Shown here: piece after piece, positions 2,528-27,559 of the stretch
How positions within the stretch are numbered: the stretch's first letter is position 1
Layout: every line of letters starts with the position of its first letter
Assembly (NCBI GenBank): GCA_903914615.1
Contig: CAIWPS010000511.1
Span: 1-39,081 of the forward strand
Length of the DNA: 39,081 nt
DNA from: an uncultured beta proteobacterium
GTDB lineage: Bacteria > Pseudomonadota > Gammaproteobacteria > Burkholderiales > Burkholderiaceae_C
Direction: 5' to 3'
Translations under genes and position numbers: made by a program
The notes under the pieces: generated by a model
What the model was told of the DNA's origin: nothing
Seen by the model: only the letters and a program-made list of their open reading frames with translations
The model's database searches: none

Positions 2528-2564
2528 CGCCAAACCTCTTTGCCTTGCTCTTGAAAACCTCAAC

Positions 2565-3322: not shown

Positions 3323-3338
3323 GGTGTCCCCTTTTTTG

Positions 3339-3556
3339 TGTCGAATATCCAAGAGCCGCTCCGAGGCCAATGAGGGGCTTAAGAGCGGGTAACTGGTGGA
3401 AATATTCGACAGCGGGGGACTTGGAACCGACTGCGGACTCAGTCAGTTGCAGGCCAGAGAGGGCCTGTCTTCGAACCAGGTGGTCGGCGGTTCGAATCCG
3501 TCCGGGCGCGCCACTTGCGCACGCCCGCTGTCGAATACTTTCGAGGTTGTCGAATA
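3339..3556. other. attP: tRNA-Arg(UCG) 3'-half core with four arm-type sites
   Basis: The gene-free stretch 3323-3566 contains the phage attachment site. Positions 3464-3513 on the plus strand read as the 3' half of a tRNA-Arg: anticodon loop CTTCGAA (3469-3475, anticodon TCG), T-arm GGCGG-TTCGAAT-CCGTC (3486-3502), acceptor CGGGCGC, discriminator G and encoded CCA (3511-3513). No 5' half is present upstream. A T-C mismatch at the base of the anticodon stem (3468/3476) suggests identity with the host ends near 3469. Four copies of TGTCGAATA flank the core: 3339-3347, 3403-3411 (inverted), 3529-3537 and 3548-3556. They are best explained as integrase arm-binding sites. In the circle attP lies downstream of int. 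Confidence 0.85.
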
Positions 3557-3566
3557 TCATCGTGCG

Positions 3567-4172: not shown

Positions 4173-4188
4173 GAAATAACCTCCTGAA

Positions 4189-4614
4189 TTAAGAGCCAAC
4201 GCTTCCATCATTCGTTGCCGCGAGGACGGTGTGACCGCTCAAATCATCAGCGGTCAGCGTGTATGCCCGCGAATTTTCTACTCTCCAAAATAACGCTTTG
4301 CAGTGCTTCTCGGCCCATGCTTGCAGCAGCGCATCCAACTCAACTTTCGCCTCTTCGGTAACCTCGGGCCAATCTTGGGCGCACTCCCCGTACTCGTCGT
4401 AAGCGCGCTCAGCAAACATCTCTACGATATCGTCGGCATCCACCAAGGTCTCGGGTGTCGCAGGTATGGCGTCAGCGACAAACACGTCTTGCCCAACCTT
4501 TAAGTAATCGTGGCTGTCGAGCAATTCACCCAGCGAATGCGCGTTGTAATTTTCGTCGTCGATGGACCAGCACTCACCTTTTGCTGGCCCGTCGCTGTTT
4601 GCTCTCTCAGCCAT
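4189..4614 (-). CDS. Acidic hypothetical phage protein
   Basis: A 141-residue, very acidic protein of a type common in phages of proteobacteria. It opens with the segment W-S-I-D-D-E-N-Y, then SLGELLDSHDYLKVGQDVFV, a DADDIVEMFAERAYDEYGE helix, EEAKVELDALLQAWAEKHC, and ends with a YTLTADDL motif. No enzymatic motif is visible and its role is unknown. I chose ATG 4614 because AGGG lies about 8 bases upstream; a second ATG two codons earlier (4620) is also possible. It overlaps the preceding coiled-coil gene by 8 bases, so it belongs to the accessory operon between int and attP. Confidence 0.65.
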   Translation of the reverse strand: MAERANSDGPAKGECWSIDDENYNAHSLGELLDSHDYLKVGQDVFVADAIPATPETLVDADDIVEMFAERAYDEYGECAQDWPEVTEEAKVELDALLQAWAEKHCKALFWRVENSRAYTLTADDLSGHTVLAATNDGSVGS

Positions 4615-4927
4615 GTGCATACCCTGTTGCGGCGGCACCCATCGCCTCAACCAAGCGCGCGACCTCGCGCTCCAGCTCGACGATACGCGCGGCGCTCTCG
4701 TTCAACTCGCGATTCGTGCGAGCCTGCCATTGCGCCTTGGATATCGCCGCTGTGGATGCTGCTACAGCCACGTCGCGCTGAGCGATTGCCTGCTCGAACG
4801 CGCTCGTGAGTTCGGCAATCCTGGCGTCGCGCTGTTTCAGCTGCTCCTGAAGGTGGCAAACGGCCGCGGCCTTGCGGTCGATCGTGTCCATCAGATCCCG
4901 GTACACCCCGCTGCGGCGCATGTTCAT
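4607..4927 (-). CDS. Coiled-coil hypothetical protein
   Basis: A 106-residue protein made almost entirely of charged helix with heptad repeats from about residue 10 to 95 (segments such as HLQEQLKQRDARIAEL and ARIVELEREVARLVEAM). No membrane segment or enzyme motif. The start ATG at 4927 overlaps the stop of the preceding 34-residue membrane protein as ATGA, which decides the start among several candidates; a longer reading to 5065 would run through that small gene. Function unknown. A partner of the adjacent membrane protein is plausible from coupling alone. Confidence 0.65.
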   Translation of the reverse strand: MNMRRSGVYRDLMDTIDRKAAAVCHLQEQLKQRDARIAELTSAFEQAIAQRDVAVAASTAAISKAQWQARTNRELNESAARIVELEREVARLVEAMGAAATGYAHG

Positions 4928-10751: not shown

Positions 10752-11729
10752 TTAGCCGGCCTGCTGGATAGACGCGTAACTGCCGGGCAGGATCGAGCAC
10801 GCAACACCGGGGGTCGCCGGACCGAACGCAAAGGCCAGGGTGCCGGCGCCGGAAGCAATCACGCTACCCTTGACAAGCACGAACTGCGTGGCGGTGCTGG
10901 TGTTGCCGGCAGCCACGATCACCGTTGCCGTGGCGGGGTTGCCCACCACCGGAAAGATCGAGTTCGACACCTGACCGGTGCTGCTTGCCTGCCCATAGCA
11001 ACCGAGCGCGACGCCACCGCCGCCGGTAAAGGCGCCGCTGTAGTTCACGCTGCACTCGAATCCGCCCATGGCGCCAGGCTGGAAACCAACGAGGATCTCG
11101 AAAATATAACTGCCCGCCGCGGCGATGTTCACGCTCAGTTGCGCGACGTTCGCGATGGCTCTCTGTGACAGCAGCTGCGTGACCACGGTTGAAGCGGACA
11201 CCAGACCGGGACCGCCGCTTGAGGAGCTCGCTGGCGCCAGCAGCACGGCGTTGCCCTGCGTGTCGAACGCTAGGTAATCACCGGCGCGCGACGCGTACCC
11301 GGGCAGCAAGCTGGTGAGCACCGGATCGCCGTCCGGGAAGCGCAGGCATCGGTTCAGCTGGTCCTGCAAACGCAGCACCATCTGGGTCAGCCGGTCGATG
11401 TTGGCCTGCAGCGCGGCGCTCGGGAACGCCTGGCCCTGGTTGTAAATCGTGTTCTGGGTCTGGGTCGGGTTCAGGATGATCTGCAGCGTGGCGCCGGCGG
11501 GCCAGGGCGCGGCATCGGTGCAGGTCAGGGTCCAGTCGGGAGGCACCAGGGAGCCGGAGGTCGCCATGGTGTAATCCGAGTTCAGGGTCAGCATGAGCTC
11601 GGCGCCGGCGACCGTCGTCAGCACCACGTCGAAGTCGGTGGCGTAGTACGCCTGAATCGCCACCGGGAACACTGTGGTGACGCCGTCACAGGTGTATTGC
11701 ACCCGGGTCGTCGTGGACGGTACCGTCAT
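10752..11729 (-). CDS. Tail fibre with T7-type virion-attachment domain
   Basis: A 325-residue protein. Residues 1-130 match the N-terminal domain by which T7-type tail fibres attach to the virion: YTCDGVTTVFPVAIQAYYATDF, a beta-rich middle, then LQANIDRLTQMVLRLQDQLNR. A short linker follows, and the C-terminal 150 residues are a Gly/Ala/Ser-rich beta domain likely to be the trimeric receptor-contact part. It is shorter than T7 gp17 (about 550 residues), so receptor specificity may be shared with the adhesin-like proteins at 29602-33937. The ATG overlaps the stop of the giant upstream gene (ATGA). Confidence 0.8.
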   Translation of the reverse strand: MTVPSTTTRVQYTCDGVTTVFPVAIQAYYATDFDVVLTTVAGAELMLTLNSDYTMATSGSLVPPDWTLTCTDAAPWPAGATLQIILNPTQTQNTIYNQGQAFPSAALQANIDRLTQMVLRLQDQLNRCLRFPDGDPVLTSLLPGYASRAGDYLAFDTQGNAVLLAPASSSSGGPGLVSASTVVTQLLSQRAIANVAQLSVNIAAAGSYIFEILVGFQPGAMGGFECSVNYSGAFTGGGGVALGCYGQASSTGQVSNSIFPVVGNPATATVIVAAGNTSTATQFVLVKGSVIASGAGTLAFAFGPATPGVACSILPGSYASIQQAG

Positions 11730-14700
11730 TCCGTGCTCCCCTTGGGCGCGTCAGGCGGCAGGCCCATGGCGTCGCCGATCTCGCCTTCGAGAGCGTTGAC
11801 GCCGCGGCGCAGGTACCACACCTGGTTGGCGGGTAGCAGGCGGCGGATACGATGCAGATCGCCCCGCGAGAATCGCTGCTTGCTGTCCGGGTTGTGCATG
11901 ATCTGCCCTCTGATTTTCGCCGGTAATCGCAGGTCCCAGACATCCGCGGCGGTACCGGCAACAGGACCGCCGAGGGTTTCCCAGGTCTGCCGATCGCCCC
12001 AGCGGCTGAAGTTATTCGCCCCCATCGCCCACAGCGCGGGGTAGAAAAACTCGCCCGTCCAGCCCAGCAGGTTCGACTTGTCGAGCACCTCGAGCGAGAA
12101 TCGCGCGGGGTCTTTCTCGACCGGTTGACCGGACAAGGCTTGCTTGGCTAGATACGTCAGACTGCCGGCACCAATCAAGGTGGCGAGTCCCATGTAGGCG
12201 CGCGCATCCCCTAGAGCCAGCCCCTGCGCAATGGGGATCAGGATTTTGCGGATCGCCACCGCGCCAAAGCTCTTGAACTGAAAGATCGCCTTGCCGATCT
12301 CGCTCGAGGTCCACAGCGGGGTATCGCCGGCAGACGGGTGCAGCGTCGCGGCATCCGCCGCCATGGCGGTCGCGGTGTCCACGAGCTCGGCCGCGCCGCG
12401 GTCGTGCCACAGGTCGGTCTGACCCAGGCGGATGCCGTTGACGGTGTTGCCGTACTCGCGGAACTGCTCCCCGATGCGCTGCAGGTCCAGGTACCCGATG
12501 CCCATGGCATTGAAGCGTGCGATCTCGGTGTTGGAGAGGTCCAGGCTGCCGCGCTTGTTTAGGTCGAGCTCCTTGGCCTGCAGCACGCGCTCCGCGGCGG
12601 CGAGGATCTCATCATGCGCCGCGGTGCCGGACCAGGCCTTGGTCGTCGCGATCAGCGGGGTCTCAAGGGTGGCGATCGTGAACGCGCGCATGCCGCGGTT
12701 CAGCGCTTTCTGGTACCCGTAGGAAGATTCGATGCCGAACTCCCCTAGCTGCGCGGCGGTGCTGTTGTGGATCATGTCGAGCGCCGCGCCCAGGCGGTGC
12801 ACGTTGTCGACCGACAGGCGCCGGGCGTCGGCGGATCCCAGCATCCGCGCCGCGGTGGCCATCGTGCCGCCGAGGCCTCGGCGCATCACGACATTGGCGA
12901 TGTCGGGCAGGTGAGAGAAGGTCGCGGTACCCAGCATGCGGAAACCGTTCAGGGAGCGGATGGCGCGGCCCGCGCGTACCGCCCAATGGCTGGGGTCGGA
13001 GGCGGCCCCGAACCGGCCATAGAGCCGGTCGCGGATCGCCACCAGGTCCCGCATGTCGCGGTTCAGGCGCTGGTCGAGCTGGTCAGCGGTGTGGTTGTCG
13101 TTGGCCACCAGCGCCCGCTGCTTGAGGATCTTGTATTCATCCGTGAGGTCGAGCGCCAGCTGCTTCAGGTTCCGGTCGTCCCCGGGGAACGCCTTCATGA
13201 TCTCGACTTGCGGGGCGAGGCTCTTGGTGTAGGCGTGCGTCAGGGTGTCGATATCGTTCACCAGGAACTTCTCAAGCTTCTCGTCGGGTAGCAGCAGCTG
13301 GCGTTCTTTGACCCGGCCGGAGTCCCCGATGCGATCGAACGCGCGCTCGTTGGTGTCCAAGAGCCCGAGCTCGCTGCCCTTGATGTTCATGGTCACGCGG
13401 TGCGCGACATCAGAGGCCTCGGCGGCTTCCAGGCCGTCGTGGTTCATGAAGTGATCGACCAGGATGTCGTGCCATTCGCGCGGGTTGGCGTTGATTTTGG
13501 CCCGGTCGTACTGGCGCATGAGATAGCTCTGCGCGGTGCCGCCGAGCATGTCCTCCTTGGCCGGCAGGAGCCCCAGCTTCTGGGCTTCGACCTTCAGCGG
13601 GTCGAAGACCATCTTGCGGGTCATCTGCGCGGCCTGCTCGATCTCCGGGGTCTCGTGGATGTCGCCGCGGCGCATGGCGGCGGATACTTCCTCGTTGAAC
13701 GCGTGCTTATCCAGACGGCCGCGGGCCACCTCGAGGTCGCCGAGCGGCCGGGCGCGGTACTGCCGATACAGCTGGTCGCGCAGGTTCCAGGCGGTGTACC
13801 AGTTGCCTTCGTAGCGCTTCAGCTTCGCCTCGACGCTGACCGGGGTCGGTACGCCATGGGAATTGCCGGCGGTGGGCAGGTTCTTGGCCAGCAGCTCGGG
13901 GGTCTCCAGCAGGATCTGCGATGCGCGGCGCATGGTCAGGAACGGGGAGCGCAGCGCGCGCGAGCCCGGGGCAAACCACCCCGTGAGCCGGCCCAACGCG
14001 GACCCGACGCGGGTGGCGTAGGTGTTGGCTTTCAGATCATCGGCGCGCACGTCGCGCGCGGTGGCGCCGGCAATCGAGTCGGCGGGCGCGGCATACAGCG
14101 GCGTGCGCTTTGGGGCAGGGTGCTCCAGGGCGGCGATGCGCGCCTCAAACTGCGCGCGGTCTTCGGGCGGCAGGCGGGCCAGCTGCTCGTGCAGATCGTC
14201 ACGAAGGCTGCGCGGCGACTGGTTGAACAGGTCGCCCTGCCGGCGCGCCGCGGAGAACAGATCGTTGGGGTCGCCGGTCTCGAGCGACTCTTGGCCGGTG
14301 TTCCTGGCTACGTCCCGGCGCCGGGTCTCGTCGGCGAGTCGCTGGGCGCTGCCGGTGCGGTCGCCAAGGAGATCGGGCTCGTCGCCGGCGGCGGCAGGAA
14401 CGCGTTCAGCAGGTTTGCGGGGGGCTTGATTGAGCCGTCCACCTGCGTCTGCCTGGCCGTCAGGTCCGGCGGCGGATCCCCGCTCTGGACCGATCCCAAG
14501 CGGTTCAAGACGCTGCGGGATGCTGCGGCCAATTTTTGCGTCCTCGTCATTGGCATGTAGCGCGCTCCTTACGGCCTCCAGATACCCGGCCTCATCGTCC
14601 GCGAACCGGATGGCCAGGTCCTCGACCAAGTCCTCGTCGATCGCGCGCAGGCGGGCCACCATGGCCACGTGCGCGGCATCCCGCGGGCTGGTGGCATCCA

Positions 14701-17700
14701 GCTCGTGGTGCATCAGCTCCTGATCTTGCGGCAGGTAGGCCTCGCTGGCAACCCGCTGGTCATGCACCTCGATCATGAAGTCGATCGTGCGCTGCTGCAG
14801 CTCGCCGAGTTTCTTGCCCTCCAGCGCCTTCTGCACGGCCGCCTTGACCGCCTCCTCGTTCAGCGATCGGTCGCCGTTGGGCCCGCCGCCGGGCCGGTCG
14901 GCCCACCATTCGGAGTTGCCGATCCAGCTGGTGCGGCTGATCTCGAACTCGTTGCCGCGGCCGCCGTCGAGCTCCTTGCGAATCATCTGGCCGCCTACCT
15001 GAGCCCAGCCGGTCTCGCGCTCGGCCATGTTGCGCAGCGCGTCGCGCAGCTCGTCGTCCGCGGCCAGGCGCTTCATGGTCGGCGTGGTGGCGGCGTTGAT
15101 GCGCTCCTGGCGCGCGGCGCGGATCTCGGTCTCATCCGCCAGCAACCGGTCCATGACTTCGCGCACGCCCGGGGCGTGGGGATTGAAGACGCTCAGCGAC
15201 CGATAGGCCTCAGTCAGCCAGGTGCGGAACTTCTCGAAGATGGTCTGCAGGCGGGTGGACGGTGCGCGGCCCTCTTTCAGGTACTGCTCGAAAGCGGTGG
15301 CGAATTGCTCGTGGAACGGGCGCTGCTCTTCGACCGACATGCCGGTCCAGGACTCGGCACCCATCAGGTCGTTGCGGATGCCGAACCAGTCCATAAGGTG
15401 CGCGAAGTCCTCGCGGATCGACAGCGGCGCGCCATCCTGCGCGGCCAGCTGGCCCATGACGTTCAGGAAATGATGCCCGGCCTCGTGCAGGAACGTGGAC
15501 ACGTCGGCGGTGGGCAGCAAGGTGATTGAATGTTCCGCCGGGTCATAGGTGCCGCGCGATTCCTGCTTGAATTTGCCTCCTACGTCTGCGTCGATACCCT
15601 GATCGCGCCATGACGCGCCGGTCTTGGTGTCGATGACATCGAGCACCCGGCCTTCCATGGAACGGATGTATTTGGCCAGGTTTTTGATCGACGCCTCGCG
15701 CAGCGTCCCATTGTTGGCCACCACCACGCGGTTGGCGTTGCTGACCGACAGCACGCGATGCATCTCGTCGAGCTTGCCGGTGTCGCGCAGCTTTGCGATG
15801 TCCGCATCCTGCACGGGTACAAAGCCCACGGGGGTGTGCCGATTGTCCAGCAGCACCAGACCGCTCTCGTTGCCGGCAATGGCCGCCGCAGCCCTGCGCG
15901 CATCGTTGCTGTCGCGCACGGCCGGACCCAGCGCGCCGTGCTCGGTGAACTGACGCTCAACGACAGGGACGGAGGCGGGACGCTCGACGGGGCTGGTGAC
16001 ACCGGTGCTGCGATCGCCTTCGTGGGTGACGTGCTCCCACGGCCGGCCCTCAGTCTTGGCGCCGCCGCCGACAGCCAGGATGCCGCGCGGCTTGATGCGG
16101 CTGCCTTCGAACAGGTCGGCGAGCACGCGGTTGATGTTCTCGTCGGCCAGCGACAGGTCGGAGAAACCGCTGGGGTGGTTGTGGCCGAACCAGATGTTCG
16201 CGGCGTCATTGATGCGAAACGCCTCGGCCGCCACTTGGGACGGGTAGACGCTGGCAGCGTCGAGGGTGCCGGTGGAGCTCCCGACGATGGCCAGTGGCCT
16301 GCCGTCTTTGTCGGTGACCAAGGCGTCGAAGCGCTCCTTGGCGCCCTTGGCCAGTGTCTGAAACGCCGTTGCCGCTTCGGCGGGCGTGGTGACGCGATCG
16401 ACGCCTAGCTGGCGCTCGGAGTCCTTGACGATCTCGGTGCGGCGGGCGTAGCGGCCCGGGGCGTCGTCGCGCGATAGCGGGCCGGCGGGCTGTACGTTCC
16501 CACCCGGCTCGGTGCTGCCGGCCGGCTCAGTCCCTCGTTCCGGGGTGCGGGGTAGTTTTTCACCGAACAGGTCCAGTGTGTACGGAGTGCCAATTGTACT
16601 CCGCTTTGGCTCTTGGGACAGAGATTCGCGCACACCCTGCAGCGCGGCCTCCGCCTGAGTGACGCGCAGCGGGAACCGGCTGTAGAGCTCGTCGGCGGTG
16701 ATGCCGAGGCGCTTGGCCTGGGTGCCGTAGAAATCGCCGACGATCGCGGCGTACGCGCGCACCTGCTTATCGTCAAATCGCTGCAGCGCGCGCAGCTGGT
16801 TGAACACCTGCGCCTCGACGCGCGGGGCGGATGAAATCATGCCGGCGTACCGGTCGATTGACGGGTGGTTCACCTGGTCGGGGTGGAACGACACATAGTG
16901 GGTCGGGCCGCCGAGGTGGGAGCTGTCGATGACCAGGCCATCGTGCCCGCGGGCGATCTGCTCGGTCGCCCAGGCGCGCGCCTCTTTGACGGTGGCGAAC
17001 TTTGGCAGCTGCTCGCTGGTGAGCTCAAGAGGGCGCTGCAAGTGCAGCCGCGCGGCGCCTTCCGCGCCTTCGCCAGCGTGCGCCTCGAAGATGTTGCCGA
17101 GGCCTTCTAAGGGGGTTCCTCGGACGGCGGCCGGGCGGACGGCGAACGGTTGGCCTGCTCGGCCTCTTGCTGCTTCAGCTGGGCGTGCTGCGCCTGCAGC
17201 ATCTGCACCAGGAACTGGTTTTCGGGGTTCTCCTGCACGAGGTTCTGCAGCTCCTTCGGCGGCTGGTACGTCGGGTCGTAGGCTCGGCTCAGCGGGTGCA
17301 GCATTGGCTTCTCCACGTGGAACGACTTCAGGTTCGGCCGGCGGCGGCTTGATGCCGCGGAAGCGCTCAAGCTCGGCGCGGCTGGTGGCGGCCCGCTCGA
17401 GGCGCGCCTGGTCGGCCAGCGCATCATCGAGCGCCGCCTGCGCTTTGGCCGCCGCCGCCTTCAGCGGTTCGAGCTGTTCATCGACGGCCTGCGTGGCGCG
17501 CTCTTGAAGCACGTCGGGCAGCTTCTCCCCGTGCTCGGCCTCCAGCTGCGCGCGCGTGCCCTCGCCGGCTTGCAGGCGCTCGATCTCCGCCTCGATCGCC
17601 TTCTGCCTTGCCTCTGGGTCGAGGGAGTCCTGCGCCTGCCGTAGCTCTTCCTGCGCGGTCTGGACGCGGGTCTCGACCTCCTTGGGGTCCAGCCCTTCGG

Positions 17701-18532
17701 CGGCCCCTGCATGCTCGCCGGCGGCGCGCTCCAGCGCCTCGCCGTGCGCGGCCAGGCGCTCTTTCAGGTCGCGGGCGATTTTCTCGGCGGTGTCGCCCGG
17801 TCCGCCTGGCCCGCCGAAGTTTTCGTCAATCCTGGTGGACAGCTCGCGCTCAAGGGCGGCCCTCAGCCGTTCATACTCGGCGAGCGGCACCTTGGGCTTC
17901 ATGGCGGCGCCCAGGATGCCGCCCAGCAGCGCCGAGGCGCCCACGTTGGCCACCGATTCGAGGCCGTAGGTGTGGGTGGGATCCAGCCCGTGGTTCAGTG
18001 CTTCCTGCGCGGCGCCGGCGCCGGCCGCGGCGATCGCCTGGCGCACGGCATTGGCCAGGCGCGCCTCCGCCAGCGGCGTCGCCATCAGCGCGATGTTCGT
18101 GGGGTCGAGCGCCTGCAGCGGCAGCTGAATCAGCCCGGTGTAGCCGCTCGAACCGATGATGCGCTGGTCGGCCAGCTTTTGGTCGATCTGCGCCTTCTTG
18201 TAGGCCACCTCTTCCGGGGTGTGCAGGTTCACGAACTGGTTGGCGTATTGCTCGTACCCTTCCGGAATCACGCCATCCTTCAGGGCCGGGTCATCCGCGT
18301 TCGGGATCAGCGGCGCGTTGTAGGCGCTCTTGAGCGCGATGTTGCTGGTGGCCTGCCCCCAGCTGGTTTCGCGCATCTGCGCGGCCCAGTAGTCGAGCGC
18401 GGAGTACTTCGGCCCGTCGGCGCCGGTGCCGCTTGCCGTGTCCTGCATGGGCTGCGGCGGCAGCGCGCCCGACGTGGGGCTGGTCGGCGCGAATTGCAAG
18501 TTGTCGGCGTCGGTGGCGCTCGTGAACGGCAC
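11726..18532 (-). CDS. Giant polyvalent ejection protein (ART-like, RadC/JAB, zincin, LPD38)
   Basis: A 2268-residue protein in the place of the last T7-type ejection protein (gp16). Visible parts in order: a helical N terminus; coiled coils (about 220-410); an Ala/Pro linker; an ADP-ribosyltransferase-like domain of the polyvalent type (about 470-560, with GHDGLVID at 529 and a GGPTHYVSF strand); a RadC/JAB metallo-domain with HNHPSG at 784-789 and Asp797 (HxHx7-10SxxD); a zincin motif HEAGH at 1016-1020; and a long helical C terminus (about 1540-2268) ending in an LPD38-like region with a hydrophobic segment near 2110. Polyvalent proteins are thought to enter the cell with phage DNA and act on host targets. 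Start GTG 18532 shares a base with the upstream stop. Confidence 0.85.
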   Translation of the reverse strand: MPFTSATDADNLQFAPTSPTSGALPPQPMQDTASGTGADGPKYSALDYWAAQMRETSWGQATSNIALKSAYNAPLIPNADDPALKDGVIPEGYEQYANQFVNLHTPEEVAYKKAQIDQKLADQRIIGSSGYTGLIQLPLQALDPTNIALMATPLAEARLANAVRQAIAAAGAGAAQEALNHGLDPTHTYGLESVANVGASALLGGILGAAMKPKVPLAEYERLRAALERELSTRIDENFGGPGGPGDTAEKIARDLKERLAAHGEALERAAGEHAGAAEGLDPKEVETRVQTAQEELRQAQDSLDPEARQKAIEAEIERLQAGEGTRAQLEAEHGEKLPDVLQERATQAVDEQLEPLKAAAAKAQAALDDALADQARLERAATSRAELERFRGIKPPPAEPEVVPRGEANAAPAEPSLRPDVPAAEGAAEPRAGEPRKPVPGADAAGAARPAEAARGRAGQPFAVRPAAVRGTPLEGLGNIFEAHAGEGAEGAARLHLQRPLELTSEQLPKFATVKEARAWATEQIARGHDGLVIDSSHLGGPTHYVSFHPDQVNHPSIDRYAGMISSAPRVEAQVFNQLRALQRFDDKQVRAYAAIVGDFYGTQAKRLGITADELYSRFPLRVTQAEAALQGVRESLSQEPKRSTIGTPYTLDLFGEKLPRTPERGTEPAGSTEPGGNVQPAGPLSRDDAPGRYARRTEIVKDSERQLGVDRVTTPAEAATAFQTLAKGAKERFDALVTDKDGRPLAIVGSSTGTLDAASVYPSQVAAEAFRINDAANIWFGHNHPSGFSDLSLADENINRVLADLFEGSRIKPRGILAVGGGAKTEGRPWEHVTHEGDRSTGVTSPVERPASVPVVERQFTEHGALGPAVRDSNDARRAAAAIAGNESGLVLLDNRHTPVGFVPVQDADIAKLRDTGKLDEMHRVLSVSNANRVVVANNGTLREASIKNLAKYIRSMEGRVLDVIDTKTGASWRDQGIDADVGGKFKQESRGTYDPAEHSITLLPTADVSTFLHEAGHHFLNVMGQLAAQDGAPLSIREDFAHLMDWFGIRNDLMGAESWTGMSVEEQRPFHEQFATAFEQYLKEGRAPSTRLQTIFEKFRTWLTEAYRSLSVFNPHAPGVREVMDRLLADETEIRAARQERINAATTPTMKRLAADDELRDALRNMAERETGWAQVGGQMIRKELDGGRGNEFEISRTSWIGNSEWWADRPGGGPNGDRSLNEEAVKAAVQKALEGKKLGELQQRTIDFMIEVHDQRVASEAYLPQDQELMHHELDATSPRDAAHVAMVARLRAIDEDLVEDLAIRFADDEAGYLEAVRSALHANDEDAKIGRSIPQRLEPLGIGPERGSAAGPDGQADAGGRLNQAPRKPAERVPAAAGDEPDLLGDRTGSAQRLADETRRRDVARNTGQESLETGDPNDLFSAARRQGDLFNQSPRSLRDDLHEQLARLPPEDRAQFEARIAALEHPAPKRTPLYAAPADSIAGATARDVRADDLKANTYATRVGSALGRLTGWFAPGSRALRSPFLTMRRASQILLETPELLAKNLPTAGNSHGVPTPVSVEAKLKRYEGNWYTAWNLRDQLYRQYRARPLGDLEVARGRLDKHAFNEEVSAAMRRGDIHETPEIEQAAQMTRKMVFDPLKVEAQKLGLLPAKEDMLGGTAQSYLMRQYDRAKINANPREWHDILVDHFMNHDGLEAAEASDVAHRVTMNIKGSELGLLDTNERAFDRIGDSGRVKERQLLLPDEKLEKFLVNDIDTLTHAYTKSLAPQVEIMKAFPGDDRNLKQLALDLTDEYKILKQRALVANDNHTADQLDQRLNRDMRDLVAIRDRLYGRFGAASDPSHWAVRAGRAIRSLNGFRMLGTATFSHLPDIANVVMRRGLGGTMATAARMLGSADARRLSVDNVHRLGAALDMIHNSTAAQLGEFGIESSYGYQKALNRGMRAFTIATLETPLIATTKAWSGTAAHDEILAAAERVLQAKELDLNKRGSLDLSNTEIARFNAMGIGYLDLQRIGEQFREYGNTVNGIRLGQTDLWHDRGAAELVDTATAMAADAATLHPSAGDTPLWTSSEIGKAIFQFKSFGAVAIRKILIPIAQGLALGDARAYMGLATLIGAGSLTYLAKQALSGQPVEKDPARFSLEVLDKSNLLGWTGEFFYPALWAMGANNFSRWGDRQTWETLGGPVAGTAADVWDLRLPAKIRGQIMHNPDSKQRFSRGDLHRIRRLLPANQVWYLRRGVNALEGEIGDAMGLPPDAPKGSTE

Positions 18533-20826
18533 TACTTGCCCCAGCGCGAATCTTGGATGTGCTGCAGGGTCGCCGCGCGATCGGCCGATGCCTTGGCCAC
18601 CGCGGCCGCATCGCGCTTCGCCGCCTCGCTGCGGGCCGCCGCGGACAGCGTCTGCAGGTCGGTGTTGGTCAGCGGCAGGTCGTAGGTCAGCGGCTGGTTG
18701 CGCTCATTCCTCAGGTCCTCGAGGTGCCCGTCGTTGTGCTCGTCGTAGAACACGCCAAAGCGCCGCCCGCCGGTCAGCTCGGTCGCCGGGATGGGCTTCA
18801 GCTTGATCTTGTCGGGGTCGGGCTTGAAGGTTTCGAGCTCGTTCTTCTCGTCGTTCCACCGCTTGATGGTGTAGGGCTCGATCCCGTCCGCGCCCTGCAC
18901 GTGCTTGGCGATGTCGTCGCGGATCAGCTGCGGGGTGATGATGGGATTGCCGTCCTTGTCCTTCACGTCCGACCACATGCGCTCGGGTGGCATGTGCCAG
19001 ATCTCCGGGGTCCCGTTGACGGTGGTGATGCCCCACGCGCGCCCGAGGCTGGCCGCGGCCGCTTTCTCGGCGCCGGCGATGTCCCCGCCGTTGCGCTCCC
19101 AGATCGCGCGCACGTTCTTGCCGTAGGCGGCCGTCATCTCCGGCGGGATCACGTCGGGCACGGAACGATTGGGAATGATCCCCAAGACCATGTTATGGCC
19201 CTGAAGCTGCGGCACGTCGTGCAGCTGCTGGCGCAGCTCCTGCTCGAGCGCGCCTTGGTTGGGTCCGAAGGGGCGCGCGAACGCGAACTGGCGGTTGAGG
19301 AGTTTCTGCCGTTCCGGGGTCTGTTCTTCATTGGCGCGCACGGTCTGCAGCGCCGAGGCGGGGTCTATGCCGCCGTTCTTGGTCAGGTCGAGGTAAGCAT
19401 CCGCCATCTGGCCGAGGCGCTCGTGGTCTTCGAGGTACTGGAACGCGCGGGGGCTCGCGTCGCGCAGGCGCGAGACCGCGCCGGCGGCCGCCGCAAACTG
19501 CTGGGGGTCTTGGGACGCCACGAGCACTGAGCGGATCGCCACCGCTGCGGTGTCCGGGATCGCGCCCTTGGTGGCGATGTGCGCGGCCAAGTTGATGCCG
19601 TCGTTGGAGAGCGGCTCGATCTTGTTCTGGTCGAGGAGGCGCTGATAGCCGAGGTCGGCCGATTTCTTGGAATCCGGGTCCTTCGGGTCGAAGTACCGCC
19701 TCCCATCCATCACGTCTTGGAAGTCCTGCAGGTGCGTGTCCGAATCCACCTGCTTCGCCGCAGCGCGCGCGTGCTCGCCCAGCCAGGCGCCGGCCTGCTC
19801 GCCGGACACCGCGACCCTGTTGTGCAGCTCCGCCACCGTGGCGTCAAAGTCGGGCCGGAACTGCCCGCTGGCCAGCTGCTGGCGGACGCTGGTCAGCTGC
19901 GCGTCGTAGCGGGTCTGGTTCTCCTCGATCAGGGTCGCGCGCTGCCGGTGGGCTTCCTGAATCGCTTTTTCCTTGATGTCGTTGTCCCAGGGCGTCCGGT
20001 CGATCGCCGCGAAGGCCTGCGCGCCGGCGGCGGGCCCGCCCATGCGCAGCGCCGAGGTCACGCCGCCGGCCAGCTGGTTCGCGATGCCGGTGGCAGCCTG
20101 CTGCAACAGCTGCGCGCGCATCTGCGGATCGCGCACCCGCGAGAGCACGGGGTCTTGGGTGCTGTCGGCCTTCAGCTCCCGATAGACATGCACCGGGTCC
20201 TTGTCGAGGAGCCCCTGCGCGGCGGCGCCGGTCAGCAGCTGATCAGTGCGGCGCAGGTATTGCAGCTTCGCCGACGGGTCGCCATCGAACCGGGTCTGGA
20301 TCTGGTCGTTCAGGGTGGAGCCGATCGAATCGGCGAGCTCGGGGTGCGCGCGCACGACGCCGAGCTGCGCCTGCAGGTTCTGTTCGATCGAGTCGGCCTG
20401 GCTGGCCTTGCGCTGCGTCGCCTCCCAGCCGAGCACATGCTCGGTGAGTGCGCGGCGCATGTCGCCGAGGCCCTTGTTGATGATCGTGCCGGCCAGGGGG
20501 TTCGAGGAGGCGGTCGAAGAGAGTTTCTGCGCGTCCTGGTCGTACTGCTGCGCCCAGCGCTCGGTGAAGTTGCCCGGGTCGCCGGCGGGCGCGGCGGCCT
20601 TCATCTGCTCAAGCTTCTGCGCCTGCGCGACGCGAAAGTCGGCCAGCGTATTCCCCGCCCAGGTGGCGGTATCCGCGGCCATCTTTTTCTGCAGCACGTC
20701 GCCGATCTGCCCGACACCCTGCGCGATGTCAGGCCCGCCGCGATCCTCGGGTGTGAGCTTGCGCGGCAAGTCCTCGGGCTGGACTTGCGGGCGGTAGATG
20801 TCCTCGCCGGGATCGCCGCGGGCCAT
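18532..20826 (-). CDS. Internal virion (ejection) protein, gp15-like
   Basis: A 764-residue, almost entirely helical, Ala/Gln/Asp-rich protein without enzyme motifs or membrane segments. Its position between the small gp14-like protein and the giant last protein is that of T7 gp15, which forms the internal core and, after ejection, a channel across the periplasm. Composition and length fit that role. A Tyr/Trp-rich C-terminal region (about 570-720) includes several DxDG-like loops. The assignment rests mainly on gene order. ATG 20826 lies 4 bases after the upstream stop. Confidence 0.75.
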   Translation of the reverse strand: MARGDPGEDIYRPQVQPEDLPRKLTPEDRGGPDIAQGVGQIGDVLQKKMAADTATWAGNTLADFRVAQAQKLEQMKAAAPAGDPGNFTERWAQQYDQDAQKLSSTASSNPLAGTIINKGLGDMRRALTEHVLGWEATQRKASQADSIEQNLQAQLGVVRAHPELADSIGSTLNDQIQTRFDGDPSAKLQYLRRTDQLLTGAAAQGLLDKDPVHVYRELKADSTQDPVLSRVRDPQMRAQLLQQAATGIANQLAGGVTSALRMGGPAAGAQAFAAIDRTPWDNDIKEKAIQEAHRQRATLIEENQTRYDAQLTSVRQQLASGQFRPDFDATVAELHNRVAVSGEQAGAWLGEHARAAAKQVDSDTHLQDFQDVMDGRRYFDPKDPDSKKSADLGYQRLLDQNKIEPLSNDGINLAAHIATKGAIPDTAAVAIRSVLVASQDPQQFAAAAGAVSRLRDASPRAFQYLEDHERLGQMADAYLDLTKNGGIDPASALQTVRANEEQTPERQKLLNRQFAFARPFGPNQGALEQELRQQLHDVPQLQGHNMVLGIIPNRSVPDVIPPEMTAAYGKNVRAIWERNGGDIAGAEKAAAASLGRAWGITTVNGTPEIWHMPPERMWSDVKDKDGNPIITPQLIRDDIAKHVQGADGIEPYTIKRWNDEKNELETFKPDPDKIKLKPIPATELTGGRRFGVFYDEHNDGHLEDLRNERNQPLTYDLPLTNTDLQTLSAAARSEAAKRDAAAVAKASADRAATLQHIQDSRWGK

Positions 20827-20829
20827 GGC

Positions 20830-21255
20830 TCAACCGAACCCTTGCGCCAGGGTGTAGCTGCTCGAATTGGCGGCCAGGAGCTTGCCGGCGGCGGTCGTCA
20901 GCCCGTTGCCGAACGCCTGGTTGCCGGCGGCCGTGTCGAGCCCGGACTGGATGCCGTATCCGTACCCGGTGATCGCGCCGCGGTAACGGGTGTTCAGGGC
21001 GTCCATCTCCTGATTGATCGCGGACTGGTCAAGAGCACGCTCGGAGCTGCCGCCGTAGCCGGCGCCAGAGGCGCCGAACGCGGCCAGCTGGGCGCCGAGT
21101 GCCTGCCGGGAGTTGCGCCGGACCTGACCCTCCTGCGCGTTGGCCTGATCAATCGACAGCCGGCCTTCGTTGGCCATGATCCCGGCGTTGGTCTGCTCCT
21201 GGTTCCGGCTGCGGATGCCCTGAGCGACGCTGGCGGCGGCGGCCAGGTAGCTCAT
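20830..21255 (-). CDS. Internal virion protein, gp14-like
   Basis: A 141-residue Ala/Gln/Asn/Gly-rich helical protein. The N-terminal helix, the QNQ-rich middle and the Gly/Ser/Tyr-rich loop (GASGAGYGGSSERALDQ) are typical of the small ejection proteins of podoviruses that correspond to T7 gp14, which inserts in the outer membrane after ejection. The ATG overlaps the upstream stop as ATGA. Identity is supported by gene order (gp13, gp14, gp15, last ejection protein). Confidence 0.75.
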   Translation of the reverse strand: MSYLAAAASVAQGIRSRNQEQTNAGIMANEGRLSIDQANAQEGQVRRNSRQALGAQLAAFGASGAGYGGSSERALDQSAINQEMDALNTRYRGAITGYGYGIQSGLDTAAGNQAFGNGLTTAAGKLLAANSSSYTLAQGFG

Positions 21256-21686
21256 GGGCTCACCCGGGCATAGCGCAGGTGGGTCGAACCGTCAGGACCG
21301 AACGCGCGCATGCGCCCCTCAAGCTCGAACCTGAGGAGTTCCAGCCAGCGGCACCCGGGCTCGAAACCTTCCAGCACCGTGGCCTCCAGGCGGCGCACGG
21401 TCTGCATCTCAAGAAACCGTTGCACGGCGCGATGCAGGTACAGCATCGAGCGACCGGCGTCCTGCGCGAGCACCGCCCAGAGCATGCCGCTGTGAGGAAA
21501 CAGGGAGACCATGCCAGCACACGCCACGATGTCGCTACCCTTCCAGAGAGTGAAGGCGGGACCCGCCGATCCGACGACGCTCGCATATTGGCCGGGCACA
21601 ATCGACAGCTCACCGACTTGGGCGGCCTGCACCCCTTGGGCCTGCAGGATGTCCATGTGAAACGCGCGGAAAGGCTCCAGGCGCAC
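21252..21686 (-). CDS. GNAT-fold virion assembly protein, T7 gp13-like
   Basis: A 144-residue protein with the layout of the phage Gp13/DUF2833 group, a degenerate N-acetyltransferase fold. It has an N-terminal helix with FRAFHMDILQ, a beta block (FTLWKGSDIVACAGMVSLF), the helix following GRSMLYLHRAVQRFL, and a VRRLEATVLEGFEPGCRWLELL segment. In T7 gp13 is needed for assembly of the internal core. The acetyl-CoA binding loop is not clearly preserved, so enzymatic activity is doubtful. Start GTG 21686 shares a base with the preceding stop (TAGTG). Confidence 0.75.
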   Translation of the reverse strand: MRLEPFRAFHMDILQAQGVQAAQVGELSIVPGQYASVVGSAGPAFTLWKGSDIVACAGMVSLFPHSGMLWAVLAQDAGRSMLYLHRAVQRFLEMQTVRRLEATVLEGFEPGCRWLELLRFELEGRMRAFGPDGSTHLRYARVSP

Positions 21687-24679
21687 TACTGCGGCTCCTC
21701 GACCTTGTACGAGGGGTATAGCCCAACGACCGTGGTGGGAAGCGGGGCGTTCTGCTGCAGCAGCACGTAGTAATCGCGCGCGTCCTGGTCGGAGTTCGGC
21801 TGATGCGGAAAGCTGATCGGGAAGTCGCCCGATTGAAGCGGCGGAGGCGAATCGAGCGGGGTGCTAGGGTAGTTGTACTGGATCGTTTCAAGGTTCTGCA
21901 CGTTCTGCTGCAAAAGCCCCAGCGGGTCCTGATAGATGCCCGTGGTCACGTTCTGGTTGGACAGCTGGCCCACTTGGGCGCCGCCGGAGTCGACCAGGCG
22001 CAGCACCAGATTGGCGCCCTGCTTTACCTTGCCCTGTGCGGTACCGACATCGGCGCCGCCTTCGAAGCGCATCGGGACGAGGTTGCCCTGGTAGGGAAAC
22101 CCGAGGGTGACGACCGCATAGGTGCCCGGCAGGGTGAGTGTTCCGGTGCCGGAGACGACCTGCTGCGCCAGCACGTTGCCATCTGCCAAAATCGAGACCG
22201 TCTGGTTCCACAGCACCGACGGGATGCCGGTGATCGTGGTGTTGCCGGACTGCTGGCTGCCGTGGGTGGCGGTGCCGCCCGAGATGTACTCGAAAGTGCC
22301 AATGTTGCCCCATTGGGCATTGATCGCGCTGAACTGGGTAGCGGTGGCCGATTCGATATACCAGTTGATATTCGCGTTGAACGTGCCGCTCGAGGCGATG
22401 CCGGAGACGGTCACGACCTCCCCGGCTGAAAAGGTGTTGTTCGCGGTGGCGATCAGCGTCTGGCCGGTCTCGGCGAAGAGCACCGTTGCGGCGGTGATGT
22501 TGGCGGAAGCGGGCGCCTGGTACTGCACGCCGGCGTCGACATACCAGCAGGACGCCTGCGGGTCGCCGGTGTAGCCGGCCTGCGGCCCTTCAAAGTGCTT
22601 GACTAGGTACTCGACCGTGCGGGTTGTGGCACCGTTCACGAGGCGCAGCACCGTCATCCACAGCTCATCGCGCAGCCCGTCCGGCGCCGGGATCACGCAG
22701 ATCGACTCGACGATGCCGTTGCCGCCGATGTTGTGGCGCGCCCAGCCGGTGACGTTGTCCTCGCGGTTGAAGGTGTACGAGAGCAGTGCCCCGTCGGATC
22801 GCACGCACCAGAGGATCTCGAAGGGCTCCTGCTGCATGGCGATCTGGGTGATGCCGCCGATGCTGATGTGGTACGAGTACTTCGACTGGTCGGTGCTGTC
22901 GTAGCGGTTCAGGTAGAAGTTATAGTCCGCCGCCATCACTTTGCGGCCGGCCCGTTGCACGTACAGGAGCGTGGTGCCGACGAGCTCGGGCCGCAGCGAA
23001 CGTACGCGCCATTGCGATTGCCGCAGCACCTCGATGTTGGCCGGGCCCAGCGGGGTGCTTGAGTAGTTGGCGGAATCCAGCCCGTACTCGCCGCCTTGGG
23101 CGCCGATGATCAGGATCTGCGCGGCGGACAGCCAGCCGATGTTCGAGCAATCGCCGCCCGACACCAGCACGTTGATCGCGGCGTCGGTCGTCACCTGCCC
23201 GTTGAAGTCCTGGGCGTGGCTGGTGTAGAGCCCCGGCACGGATCCGAAAATGTTGAGCTTGCCGGCCCAGAACAACCGGTCCTTGAAGATATCCACCGCT
23301 CGCGGCCACTCGGTGGAATTCGACCAAGCCCCCAGCTGCCATTCGGTCGAGTAGTTGCCATACACGGTACCGCCCGAGGTGTATCCGCTGAAAGTGCGCG
23401 AATCGGTGCCGACAAGGGTTGCGCTGCCGCCCGCGGCGGTGCCGTTGGTGTAGACGTTGTTATTCAGCTGCGTCATGCCGATGACGCCCGTGACGAACAG
23501 CGACTCGCCGGTCGTGAAGGCATTGGCGGCGGTCAGCACGCAAGGGTTGGCGGCCGTGGCGCCCGTGATCGCGGCGCTGCTGCCGACGCAATTGGCCGGG
23601 AACTGCAGCAGCACGTTCGCCGTCACGCTGCCGGAATTGGTGAACCCGGTGATCTGCGCGATGCCGTAGCCCGAGTCGGTGTAAAGCCAGCGCACGCCAC
23701 CGGGACCATCCAGCACCGCGCCGGAGGTGTGCACTGGGGGCGATGCGCCGGTCGTCGCGGCGTTCAGCGCGACGTAGTTGTTTCCATTGTTGCTGCAGGT
23801 CGCGCCCACTGCGAACGCCACCTGTGTCGCCCAGGGTGTGACGTTGTACGTCTGGGACGCGATGCGCACGAGGCGTCCGACATCGGTCGCCGCGAAGGGC
23901 GGCGCGAAACCCACGGCGGTGATCGTGATGCTGTTGCCGCTGACCGCCGAGACGGCGAGCGCGGTCTTCAGGCCCGCCACCAACGGCACAGGACTCAGGA
24001 ACGGCCCGTCGGTCGGCGCGTATCGCGCAAACACCCAGGCGGGCGGGGCATTGCCGAGGCGCGTCAGGGTGTACGGGGGATACCCGATGGCGGTGACGGC
24101 ATTGGCAGCGCCGCCGGCGATGTAGAGCACGTCGCCGGATTGCTTGATCTGCAGCGTGAACTGGCCGAGCGAGTCGACGAGGTCGGCGGCGGCGTACGGG
24201 GAGGGGATCTCGTAGATCGCCGTGGTGGTGCTGCCGTTATAGGCCACCATCGGGTACCAGTAGGCGGTATTGGTCGGGGCGTTGCCTAAGCTGATGGCGG
24301 TGCAGTAATACTGGGCGCCGTCGAACAGCACGCTCGAGCCCGGGATGTAGACTTGCAGGTTGCTGTACGCCGGCGGGCTGACCGAAAGCAGGGGCCCGTG
24401 GTTGGTGTAGAACCGGACGTACCCATCGCCGAATTCCAGCACAAAGGCCTGCGCCTGGGAAAACTCAAAGCGGACGAGGAACGCCCGGTACCCGTAGCTC
24501 TTGACCTGCTGCACATAGCAGGTGCCGGGCCGGAACATCGAGGGGCCCTGCTTCAGGGGCAGGAAATTCTGCTGAATGTGCGCAGCGATGGCGTACTTCT
24601 CGACATCGGTGCGCCCCTCCATCTGGGGTGAGAACTCGCCGGCGTTGAACGCGGCGATCGCCGGCGACGCGCGACCCAC
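21686..24679 (-). CDS. Tail tubular protein B (tail nozzle), T7 gp12-like
   Basis: A 997-residue beta-rich protein. The N terminus (FNAGEFSPQMEGRTDVEKYA, then GPSMFRPGTCYV) is the conserved start of podovirus tail nozzle proteins, which form the distal end of the tail. Length exceeds T7 gp12 (about 794) because of two inserted beta modules of the repeat type often seen in phage tails: about 373-413 (with GVIGMTQLNNNVYT) and about 724-775 (with GEVVTVSGIASSGTFN). These may be used for receptor or sugar contact. Gene order after tail tube A supports the call. Confidence 0.85.
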   Translation of the reverse strand: MGRASPAIAAFNAGEFSPQMEGRTDVEKYAIAAHIQQNFLPLKQGPSMFRPGTCYVQQVKSYGYRAFLVRFEFSQAQAFVLEFGDGYVRFYTNHGPLLSVSPPAYSNLQVYIPGSSVLFDGAQYYCTAISLGNAPTNTAYWYPMVAYNGSTTTAIYEIPSPYAAADLVDSLGQFTLQIKQSGDVLYIAGGAANAVTAIGYPPYTLTRLGNAPPAWVFARYAPTDGPFLSPVPLVAGLKTALAVSAVSGNSITITAVGFAPPFAATDVGRLVRIASQTYNVTPWATQVAFAVGATCSNNGNNYVALNAATTGASPPVHTSGAVLDGPGGVRWLYTDSGYGIAQITGFTNSGSVTANVLLQFPANCVGSSAAITGATAANPCVLTAANAFTTGESLFVTGVIGMTQLNNNVYTNGTAAGGSATLVGTDSRTFSGYTSGGTVYGNYSTEWQLGAWSNSTEWPRAVDIFKDRLFWAGKLNIFGSVPGLYTSHAQDFNGQVTTDAAINVLVSGGDCSNIGWLSAAQILIIGAQGGEYGLDSANYSSTPLGPANIEVLRQSQWRVRSLRPELVGTTLLYVQRAGRKVMAADYNFYLNRYDSTDQSKYSYHISIGGITQIAMQQEPFEILWCVRSDGALLSYTFNREDNVTGWARHNIGGNGIVESICVIPAPDGLRDELWMTVLRLVNGATTRTVEYLVKHFEGPQAGYTGDPQASCWYVDAGVQYQAPASANITAATVLFAETGQTLIATANNTFSAGEVVTVSGIASSGTFNANINWYIESATATQFSAINAQWGNIGTFEYISGGTATHGSQQSGNTTITGIPSVLWNQTVSILADGNVLAQQVVSGTGTLTLPGTYAVVTLGFPYQGNLVPMRFEGGADVGTAQGKVKQGANLVLRLVDSGGAQVGQLSNQNVTTGIYQDPLGLLQQNVQNLETIQYNYPSTPLDSPPPLQSGDFPISFPHQPNSDQDARDYYVLLQQNAPLPTTVVGLYPSYKVEEPQ

Positions 24680-25290
24680 TACTGCATCCTCGAAAGGATC
24701 CAGGTGTCATCGGCGGGGAACTGCGGGGTGTTGACGAGCGCGTTGCTGGCGACCGCGTTTGAGCGGGCGTCTTCCTTGCGCTGCTTCGCCGCTTCCTGCT
24801 TGGCGTCGGACCCAGTCAACCGCTCGCAGTTGATCCAGGCAAGCTCGGCGCCCAGGTACATGACAAACCACGGATCGAACATCGTGGTGTCGGTCATGTC
24901 GGCGACGTACTGCAGCGACAGCGGCGATCCGTAGTCGCAGAGAATCATCTTCCCCTCGACCAAGTACCCGGCGTCGGTGGGTCCCATGCGGTAGTCCGAG
25001 AGGTCCAGTCCGGGGTAGGTATCTCCGGCCATGATGACGCGCAGGCAGTCGGCCGGCAGCGGGTACTGGGTCTGGAACGGACCGGACACGACGGCGGTGG
25101 CGGAGGGCGCCAAGGATGCCCGCTTGATAGAAAAGCGCCACGTCGAGCGGCCGGCGATCAGCGCGCGGCGAGTGATGTCGTAGGTCGCGTTGATGGCGCG
25201 CGCTGCGTTGGAGTTGTCGAGCAGGCTCGTAATCGCCGGCTTGCCGAGGATCTCAAGCGCGACATTGGCAATATCAATCACGCCCGCCAT
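24679..25290 (-). CDS. Tail tubular protein A (head-tail adaptor), T7 gp11-like
   Basis: A 203-residue protein with the typical start of the family (DIANVALEILGKPAITSL, then NAARAINATYDITRRALI), a beta middle containing YPLPADCLRVI and a helical C terminus. The protein forms the ring between the portal and the nozzle. Length is as usual. ATG start; the stop overlaps the next start (TAGTG). Confidence 0.9.
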   Translation of the reverse strand: MAGVIDIANVALEILGKPAITSLLDNSNAARAINATYDITRRALIAGRSTWRFSIKRASLAPSATAVVSGPFQTQYPLPADCLRVIMAGDTYPGLDLSDYRMGPTDAGYLVEGKMILCDYGSPLSLQYVADMTDTTMFDPWFVMYLGAELAWINCERLTGSDAKQEAAKQRKEDARSNAVASNALVNTPQFPADDTWILSRMQ

Positions 25291-26641: not shown

Positions 26642-27559
26642 TTACCGCGCCCACACCTGGACGACGCGCTTCTCTTCGAGCCGGGTCGCCCCGGCGGTCA
26701 TGTACACATAGGCCTGCCACGGCTCGGATTGCAGATCGTGGCGCTGGCTGATGTTGGTCGTGATGTCGTTCCAGATGCCGAGGTGCATGCCCTCGCGCTG
26801 CCAGACGAAGCACTTGGTGGACGTACCCGCCTGGTCGTCGGTGCCGGTCTGCAGGCGCTCGGAGCGCACGAACTCGATGCCGAGGAAGCGCTTCACGCGA
26901 CCCTCACCCAGGACCGGCACGTCGTTGTAGTCGCGGCTGACCACCTGCGCTTCGGCCATCAGGTTGTCGAGCTGGCGCGCGCCGGCGACGCACACGAGGC
27001 CAGAGTGCGGATCGCCCGGATCCTCTTCCTCGTCGGAGTACGCCTCGTTCTGCATCAGGGTCAGCTTGGCCTGGCGCAGCTTCGCGACGGTCAAGCCCGT
27101 GGGCGCAGTGGCGCCCTGCTGCACGGACACGATTGCCGTGGCGGGCAGGGAAATCGAATTCTGCGCGGTGACGCCGGTCTGCGCGACGCCGCCCAGGGCC
27201 GCGATGATCAGGTCGTCATACTGACGATTGGCCGCGTTGTGGGCGTTCGAGACGAACTTGCCCTTCGGGTCGATCAGCAGGCGCAGCTTGTCGTAGTTGT
27301 CGAACAGCTGCGGCAGGTCGTAGTCGTTGGGGTACACCCACCGGCGATCGGTCGGCGCGTCCACGCGCTGCATCGGGCCGTAGCGCTGCGTGACGGGCTG
27401 CATGGCGACGATACCCACCTGCTCGACGGGGCTCGCGGCCTGGCCGACATACTTGTCTTCGGTGACGAACTTGCGCAGCCGGGAGCTCTTCTGCTGGACG
27501 AGCTCGTTCAGCATCTTCGCGTACTGCTGAACGTAGAACGTGACGATATTGGTTGACAC
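26642..27559 (-). CDS. Major capsid protein
   Basis: A 305-residue protein of the Phage_capsid_2 type. Typical segments are FYVQQYAKMLNELVQQKSS at the start, PVEQVG, RYGPMQRVDAPTDRRWVYPN, the NRQYDDLIIAAL helix (spine helix of the HK97 fold), an acidic E-loop-like part (DEEEDPGDP) and the GIEFVRSE strand. It forms the icosahedral shell with the scaffold encoded upstream. GTG 27559 is preceded by GGAGG at 7 bases, among the best ribosome sites of the window, and by a structured 204-base leader, consistent with high expression. The 52 bases after it (26590-26641) contain a G/C-rich hairpin without T-run. Confidence 0.9.
   Translation of the reverse strand: MSTNIVTFYVQQYAKMLNELVQQKSSRLRKFVTEDKYVGQAASPVEQVGIVAMQPVTQRYGPMQRVDAPTDRRWVYPNDYDLPQLFDNYDKLRLLIDPKGKFVSNAHNAANRQYDDLIIAALGGVAQTGVTAQNSISLPATAIVSVQQGATAPTGLTVAKLRQAKLTLMQNEAYSDEEEDPGDPHSGLVCVAGARQLDNLMAEAQVVSRDYNDVPVLGEGRVKRFLGIEFVRSERLQTGTDDQAGTSTKCFVWQREGMHLGIWNDITTNISQRHDLQSEPWQAYVYMTAGATRLEEKRVVQVWAR

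Follow-up and report, generated by a model that had tools for sequence, protein, structure and literature searches.

What does a phage carry in a protein of 2268 residues that stands where T7 has gp16? The question is raised by contig CAIWPS010000511.1 of an uncultured beta proteobacterium. The window analysed here is this whole contig, 39,081 nt of a 5.88-Mb assembly of 866 contigs (GCA_903914615.1). An earlier reading of the letters and their translations, referred to as the original prediction, had proposed an ejected polyvalent protein with ART-like, RadC/JAB and zincin motifs. We find a gp16-class protein whose cargo includes two RadC folds in tandem, the first with a complete metal-site signature and the second without one. 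This pair and its wide reuse are the new part of the finding; the original prediction had missed the second RadC domain as well as the occurrence of the module on a plasmid. Our reading, which we consider about 60% probable, is that a temperate podovirus of T7 morphology delivers the RadC pair as cargo of its gp16-class protein, and that the pair is freed by the zincin and acts on entry.

The gene is a single open reading frame (ORF) on the minus strand, with a GTG start at 18532 and its stop at 11726; the plus-strand translation of 11726-18532 contains many stops. Coordinates and length had been predicted correctly, so that the observation stands once the strand is corrected, and the motifs lie at the residues given for them: HNHPSG at 784-789 (with S794 and D797), HEAGH at 1016-1020 and GHDG at 529-532.

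A RadC-type domain with a complete ligand set and a metal-less second copy

Residues 712-830 adopt the RadC fold in the predicted structure (references: RadC 2qlc and Pfam PF04002) and hold the full JAMM set of E733, H784, H786, S794 and D797. The form given for the JAMM motif is E-xn-HxH-x7-SxxD (PMC300881), and the window protein has this ligand set, with HNH in the HxH place. Shuffling the 2268-aa protein produced HxHx7SxxD in 27 of 5000 cases (0.5%) and the zincin motif HExxH in 354 of 5000 (about 7%). HExxH alone is therefore weak evidence, and it is conservation, not the motifs, that proves the sites.

With the pair as query we retrieved 62 viral loci (loci are numbered with an L below). 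Together with the window, they keep H786 and D797 in 63 of 63 rows, H784 in 62 (R in L088) and S794 in 62 (T in L076), and E733 is present in all 62 rows that have a letter there. The string HxHx7SxxD occurs in 60 of the 62 related ORFs, the exceptions being L076 (T for S) and L088. Since the patterns of the pair search contained HNH or ERFD, only the conservation of S794 and D797 is free of selection bias. A first ligand alignment had covered 37 of the 62 loci and left out all five without HxHPxG-x(3-6)-SxxD; the recount took all 62. The RadC/JAB domain that had been proposed is thus borne out by a PF04002-type match, by the predicted fold and by its conserved ligands, and this complete zinc-site signature predicts metal binding and activity. 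NCBIfam added only RadC and chance-level matches for the 2268-aa protein, and PADLOC returned nothing.

After it follows a second domain (residues 848-985) with NNG where HNHPSG would be expected. Its RadC homology and fold are indicated by hhalign to standalone RadC and by the predicted model. The catalytic ligand set is absent: His never occurs in the second His place, where 31 of the 43 rows with a letter have Gly; in the first place 12 of 54 rows have His; and the alignment contains no conserved SxxD. The domain keeps residues of its own, N951 in 58 of 58 and D965 in 54 of 54 rows with a letter, and phmmer picked it up in 54 of the 62 viral loci. Standalone chromosomal RadC (2qlc, PF04002) has the fold common to both domains; the pair differs from it in being a tandem whose second copy lacks the HxH...SxxD signature. 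DUF3085 has been reported beside plasmid RadC (PMC12826799). That the second domain is DUF3085 or another Pfam family was ruled out, as no Pfam match fell in it in the three pair-bearing proteins scanned (from the window, a plasmid and the host-family genome G053).

Constraint on the pair

Selection was estimated from one sequence pair, the window against L001 (88% identical overall). The ratio of nonsynonymous to synonymous change (dN/dS) was 0.017 for the active RadC domain, 0.036 for the dead one and 0.071 for the gp16 part, compared with 0.14 for residues 1-240, 0.19 for the ART remnant, 0.20 for the zincin and 0.32 for the coiled stretch. Synonymous divergence (pS) was 0.33 and 0.29 in the pair, 0.32-0.48 in other regions and 0.15 in the linker 641-711. 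These values point to strong purifying selection on the RadC pair. We do not favour recent acquisition as the sole explanation of why the pair is so similar to that of L001, because its pS lies at the low end of the other regions and not, as in the linker, far below them. The G+C content of the pair (0.66-0.67) is inside the range of the flanks.

The same numbers bear on another reading, in which the cargo consists mainly of relic domains that persist as filler or spacer in a long structural protein. An eroded ART (see below) and a RadC fold without a metal site are in line with this. However, a dN/dS of 0.017 and 0.036 at a pS of 0.29-0.33 is hard to reconcile with decay, and so is the retention of the RadC ligands (62-63 of 63 rows), of the zincin ligands (25 of 25) and, in the dead domain, of N951 (58/58) and D965 (54/54). 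We regard relics as very improbable overall; the idea is already disfavoured for the RadC pair, though not for residues 241-565.

A gp16-class vehicle

T7 gp16 is part of the internal core and of the DNA-ejection channel. From capsid to fibre, the gene order of the window parallels T7 genes 10-17, plus one extra ORF, and this synteny confirms the predicted gp16 position. The homology goes beyond that claim: residues 1388-2250 match phrog_342 (E 9e-72 for the best stretch), which T7 gp16 itself matches over 1-1315. Because of this C-terminal homology, the protein is gp16-class by descent and not merely by position. It shares with T7 gp16 an equal place in the gene order and its own C-terminal ~860 aa, but carries some 1200 aa of other domains ahead of them. 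The first ~190 residues of T7 gp16 match transglycosylase and endolysin families, whereas the window protein has no such match. Neither in it nor in the protein in the gene 15 place was an SLT or lysozyme domain found (Pfam, E ≤ 1; PHROGs, lysozyme region, E ≤ 0.1). Judging from these comparisons, the lysozyme part of gp16 appears to be replaced by swappable polyvalent cargo.

The zincin and the exchange site ahead of it

In residues 986-1170, the HEAGH motif is joined by E1082 as third ligand, and H1016, E1017, H1020 and E1082 are kept in 25 of 25 rows. Twelve of these rows were found by patterns holding those residues; 13 rows, those of the window and L036-L047, do not have this bias. The zincin motif of the original prediction stands on this conservation, and by its signature we classify the region as a putative zincin-like metallopeptidase. 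A fold search with a model spanning RadC and zincin gave match lists filled by RadC/JAB, so that the absence of zincins from them is no evidence. The Bbp10 relative has been classed as CLCA_X (PMC3650047).

Three further contigs of the same assembly encode matching proteins (C147, C424 and C779; L008-L012, L034). The C147 protein (2969 aa) is 38% identical over 9-639 and 53% over 981-2264, with nothing in between, and the RadC part is absent from it. The C424 match is partial, and the C779 protein (2650 aa) has the zincin and a Bbp10-like C-terminus. Four contigs of one bacterial assembly, the window included, thus bear giants of the gp16-place type or a fragment of one, with differing cargo. 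In the C147 protein (L009, 775-9681, minus strand), ~1000 slot residues (~673-1707) had no Pfam match at E ≤ 0.1.

An equal gene place is held by Bbp10 of Bordetella phage BPP-1, the 2039-aa protein of Caulobacter phage Jess A and ORF24 of CP2. The stretch from the short conserved block (568-640) to the zincin is occupied by PBECR1 in Bbp10 and by ART-PolyVal in Jess A. Bbp10 shares with the window protein its gene place and phrog_9880, and is 43% identical in the zincin region and 46% in the short block (568-624). It differs in its LPD22 near the N-terminus, in having PBECR1 and no RadC in the slot, and in another C-terminal type. BPP-1 also has an SLT lysozyme domain in bbp11, whereas none was found in the two window proteins. 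Pfam RadC was not found in Bbp10 or in the Jess A, CP2 and C147 proteins, and phmmer detected neither RadC domain in these four or in the C779 protein. Since the slot contents differ among relatives, we regard the region ahead of the zincin as an exchange site. The name 'crystallin beta/gamma motif-containing protein', given to Bbp10 (NC_005357) and several relatives, is unsupported by the Pfam domains found (LPD22, PBECR1). A search of genome contigs with the whole 2268-aa protein gave no relative, and the last 2.6 kb had no megablast match in the phage collection.

At least 448 viral loci with this zincin were confirmed. Among the best 80 of them, a Jess A-like ART occurs in 18, an LPD22-like start in 43, a Bbp10-like C-terminus in 78 and the RadC pair in one. 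The zincin is therefore the constant element, which would suit an explanation in which pair and zincin are assembly tools only, the protein being cut or folded in the head with nothing enzymatic happening in the host. In P1, the polyvalent protein DdrB, which also bears a zincin, undergoes cleavage ahead of packaging (PMC5512222). On the other hand, assembly does not need the RadC pair, because the protein is retained in relatives that lack the pair, and the pair also occurs on a plasmid protein without a virion (see below). We consider a role confined to assembly unlikely.

The third predicted domain, the ART-like block, proved to be real homology to part of a domain only. Compared with the C147 paralogue and L039, the strand-1/2 part (VYRGG/VHRGS ... 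FTG/FTS in relatives) is missing. For the C147/L039 domain itself, hhalign against five ART rows only gave 76.7% (E 2e-5; four controls, 0.1-0.5%), and Pfam found no ART in the C147 protein at E ≤ 0.1. For the window protein, hhalign of the ART-like region to five ART rows gave 1.8%, and Pfam ART-PolyVal (PF18760) had no match at E ≤ 1. The active site of ART-PolyVal consists of H in strand 1, Y in strand 2 and D in strand 5 (PMC5512222); with the strand-1/2 segment missing, the window protein lacks this set. A working ART is rejected, since its first half is gone while the homologous domain is complete in C147 and L039. The multi-enzyme reading thus holds for two of the three proposed domains. 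The polyvalent architecture itself, with RadC-type JAB, zincin and eroded ART in one chain, is borne out: polyvalent proteins combine disparate enzyme domains and a zincin in one protein within the virion gene block (PMC5512222), as here. The sections of that paper considered here make no mention of a paired dead RadC, and we found nothing in the open PMC literature that joins RadC to a phage ejection protein.

Reuse of the RadC pair

In 60 of the 62 pair loci the ORF is 1000 aa or longer; the 44 of these ORFs that are complete within their stretch have a median of 2840 aa (range 1208-4764). Some loci are not independent: L058-L061 and L074-L075 carry near-identical modules, and L036 comes from the same contig as L001. 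Two loci have a C-terminal vehicle of the gp16 type, 18 a Bbp10-like one and eight a G053-like (LPD38-bearing) one; the vehicle is unassigned in 34, some of them incomplete. We scanned ten neighbour proteins (L037, L040, L041, L045, L069, L077): eight had matches to families of tail, internal virion, virion structural or endolysin proteins, and two (one of those in L069 and the single one in L077) had none. Among 100 host-family genomes, own included, the full-length pair was present only in the own genome and in G053, other matches being shorter. Predicted structures of three giants of uncultured Caudovirales in BFVD (A0A6J7XFQ9, A0A6J5M0M8, A0A6J5NPU7) align with the pair model beyond one domain. 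For A0A6J7XFQ9 the alignment covers 292 columns at 2.8 A, a length that suggests the whole pair. These entries are named 'RadC-like JAB' or helicase, and their second domain is unnamed.

The pair is not confined to viruses. In a search of 72,556 plasmids, 909 records matched at E ≤ 0.1, and one, NZ_CP100552 of Pseudomonas sp. KHPS1, covers 80% of the pair. Its 1809-aa protein has the whole pair at 39-42% identity and then an HExxxH motif; ArdC-N and MPTase-PolyVal follow the pair, and it is no virion protein. The plasmid is conjugative, with the order traI, type IV secretion system, traF, topoisomerase, traD, giant gene. We take this to be the order of IncP plasmids, with the giant at the RP4 TraC position. 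The open frame spans 14857-20283 (L032), and the annotated protein WP_254300406 starts at 15880, 1023 bases later. As this start excludes the pair, annotated-protein databases may miss it.

Gene neighbourhood

The features of the window are collected in Table 1. The GTG start of the 2268-aa gene shares one base with the TAG stop of the upstream 764-aa gene (TAGTG), and this overlap makes it likely that the two are co-translated. The 764-aa protein has no family match in Pfam or PHROGs. The window also encodes an integrase, a GH108 lysozyme, a terminase (match at the cut-off) and a helix-turn-helix regulator, which fits a temperate phage. The contig has no exact terminal repeats of 12-399 bases.

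Several neighbours deserve comment. The tail tubular B-like protein has 997 aa and a sub-threshold E1_FCCH match at residues 386-439 (E 1.8e-5, below the curated score); relatives such as that of L041 have ~680 aa, so this stretch may be an insertion. A 697-aa protein, encoded between the capsid gene and the terminase side, combines a legume-lectin-like domain with a chitobiase C-terminal-like one and is possibly a surface decoration. In the 1170-aa ORF, by eye, the Arg/Pro-rich first third looks out of frame, and the rest begins with Met and a signal-peptide-like sequence and has a Gly-rich C-terminus; the real start is probably internal.

Table 1. Positions of the 2268-aa gene, its domains and its neighbours in the window
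Feature	Position	Strand	Basis or remark
Tail fibre	10752..11729	-	phrog_1640 E 5e-13; Phage_T7_tail E 0.05, below cut-off
2268-aa T7 gp16-class internal virion / polyvalent protein	11726..18532	-	phrog_342 and gene order
T7 gp16-like C-terminal region, residues 1481-2268	11729..14092	-	phrog_342 match spans 1388-2250
Zincin-like metallopeptidase (predicted), residues 986-1170	15023..15577	-	phrog_9880; HEAGH 1016-1020, third ligand E1082
Second RadC fold, residues 848-985	15578..15991	-	NNG where HNHPSG expected
RadC-type JAB, residues 712-830	16043..16399	-	full JAMM set E733, H784, H786, S794, D797
Short conserved block, residues 566-640	16613..16837	-	AYAAIVGDFYGTQ..LGITADELY; common to Bbp10 and Jess A
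Eroded ART, residues 461-565	16838..17152	-	C-terminal part GHDGLVID...YVSFHPDQV kept
N-terminal region, residues 1-240	17813..18532	-	common with C147 paralogue; in lysozyme-domain place of T7 gp16
764-aa gene, T7 gene 15 place	18532..20826	-	position and size only (T7 gp15 747 aa)
gp14-like internal virion protein	20830..21255	-	phrog_418 E 1.7e-14
gp13-like internal virion protein	21252..21686	-	phrog_4177 E 5e-24, phrog_308 E 4e-4
Tail tubular protein B-like, T7 gene 12 place	21686..24679	-	phrog_376 E 9e-142
Tail tubular protein A-like, T7 gene 11 place	24679..25290	-	phrog_394 E 3e-40
Extra ORF between capsid and gene 11 place	25906-26589		
Major capsid protein	26642..27559	-	phrog_3437 E 1e-65; Phage_capsid_2 E 1e-64
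697-aa lectin-like protein	29602-31695	-	
1170-aa ORF	31709-35221	-	

A model for delivery and early action

Judging from homology, the C-terminal ~860 aa would serve as the vehicle, joining the internal core and taking part in the DNA-ejection channel, and the variable region ahead of it would be the cargo delivered to the host. The zincin most likely severs the chain, either inside the head or following entry, and so would free the RadC unit, in which the metal-less fold may act as scaffold or substrate-binding half. The freed unit would act at once in the new host. Its most likely substrate is a nucleic acid or nucleotide, one that either endangers the incoming DNA or is required by it; published context arguments favour a substrate of this kind.

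The main enzymatic rival is a deconjugase. Delivered early, the pair would strip ubiquitin-like conjugates of CBASS Cap2/Cap3 and Bil/Bub defences from phage or host proteins, which resembles the 'deubiquitinate-like' processing of the original prediction. The closest fold of the domain is RadC, however, and RadC has been argued to be unlikely to hold a groove for the ubiquitin tail (PMC5512222), which is why we do not favour this activity and rate it as rather improbable.

Several observations weigh against delivery of a RadC pair that acts on entry. The dN/dS values come from a single sequence pair, a thin base, and the low pS of the RadC pair and of the linker (0.15) may reflect an older local exchange; the low dN/dS of the pair stands with or without it. 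For the second domain, the assignment depends on the predicted model and on the hhalign match to standalone RadC. Against the active domains hhalign gave only 22.6%, so that it was not recognised, and its profile had no match at E ≤ 1 among PDB sequences (hmmsearch). The zincin profile likewise had no match below E 0.3 among PDB sequences. None of 50,697 phage records covers 80% of the pair, and 11 have partial matches at E ≤ 1. The literature passages considered report no detection of this protein class in virions, and in the BPP-1 virion study, as described there, two major bands were excised and analysed. Finally, the function of RadC is disputed.

Implications

RadC function is unsettled; PMC11981726 and PMC12826799 both cite a paper entitled 'RadC, a misleading name?'. 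A bolder proposal, which we advance tentatively and would not yet bet on, is that the RadC/dead-RadC pair is a transferable 'entry kit' part, which phages carry on vehicles of the gp16, Bbp10 and LPD38 types and conjugative plasmids on a protein at the TraC position. As an enzyme that requires both folds, the pair would enter the recipient cell together with the DNA, and its action within the first minutes would be the long-sought job of RadC on mobile DNA.

The pair is the most constrained stretch of a probably injected protein, and it recurs on different viral delivery-type proteins and on that of one plasmid. Many viral giant proteins thus contain a domain that has been listed as restricted to conjugative elements, and in T7-like podoviruses the gp16 slot appears as an exchange site for cargo domains. 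The question of what RadC does is narrowed to a 300-residue unit and to a predicted site of action, the cell that newly receives foreign DNA.

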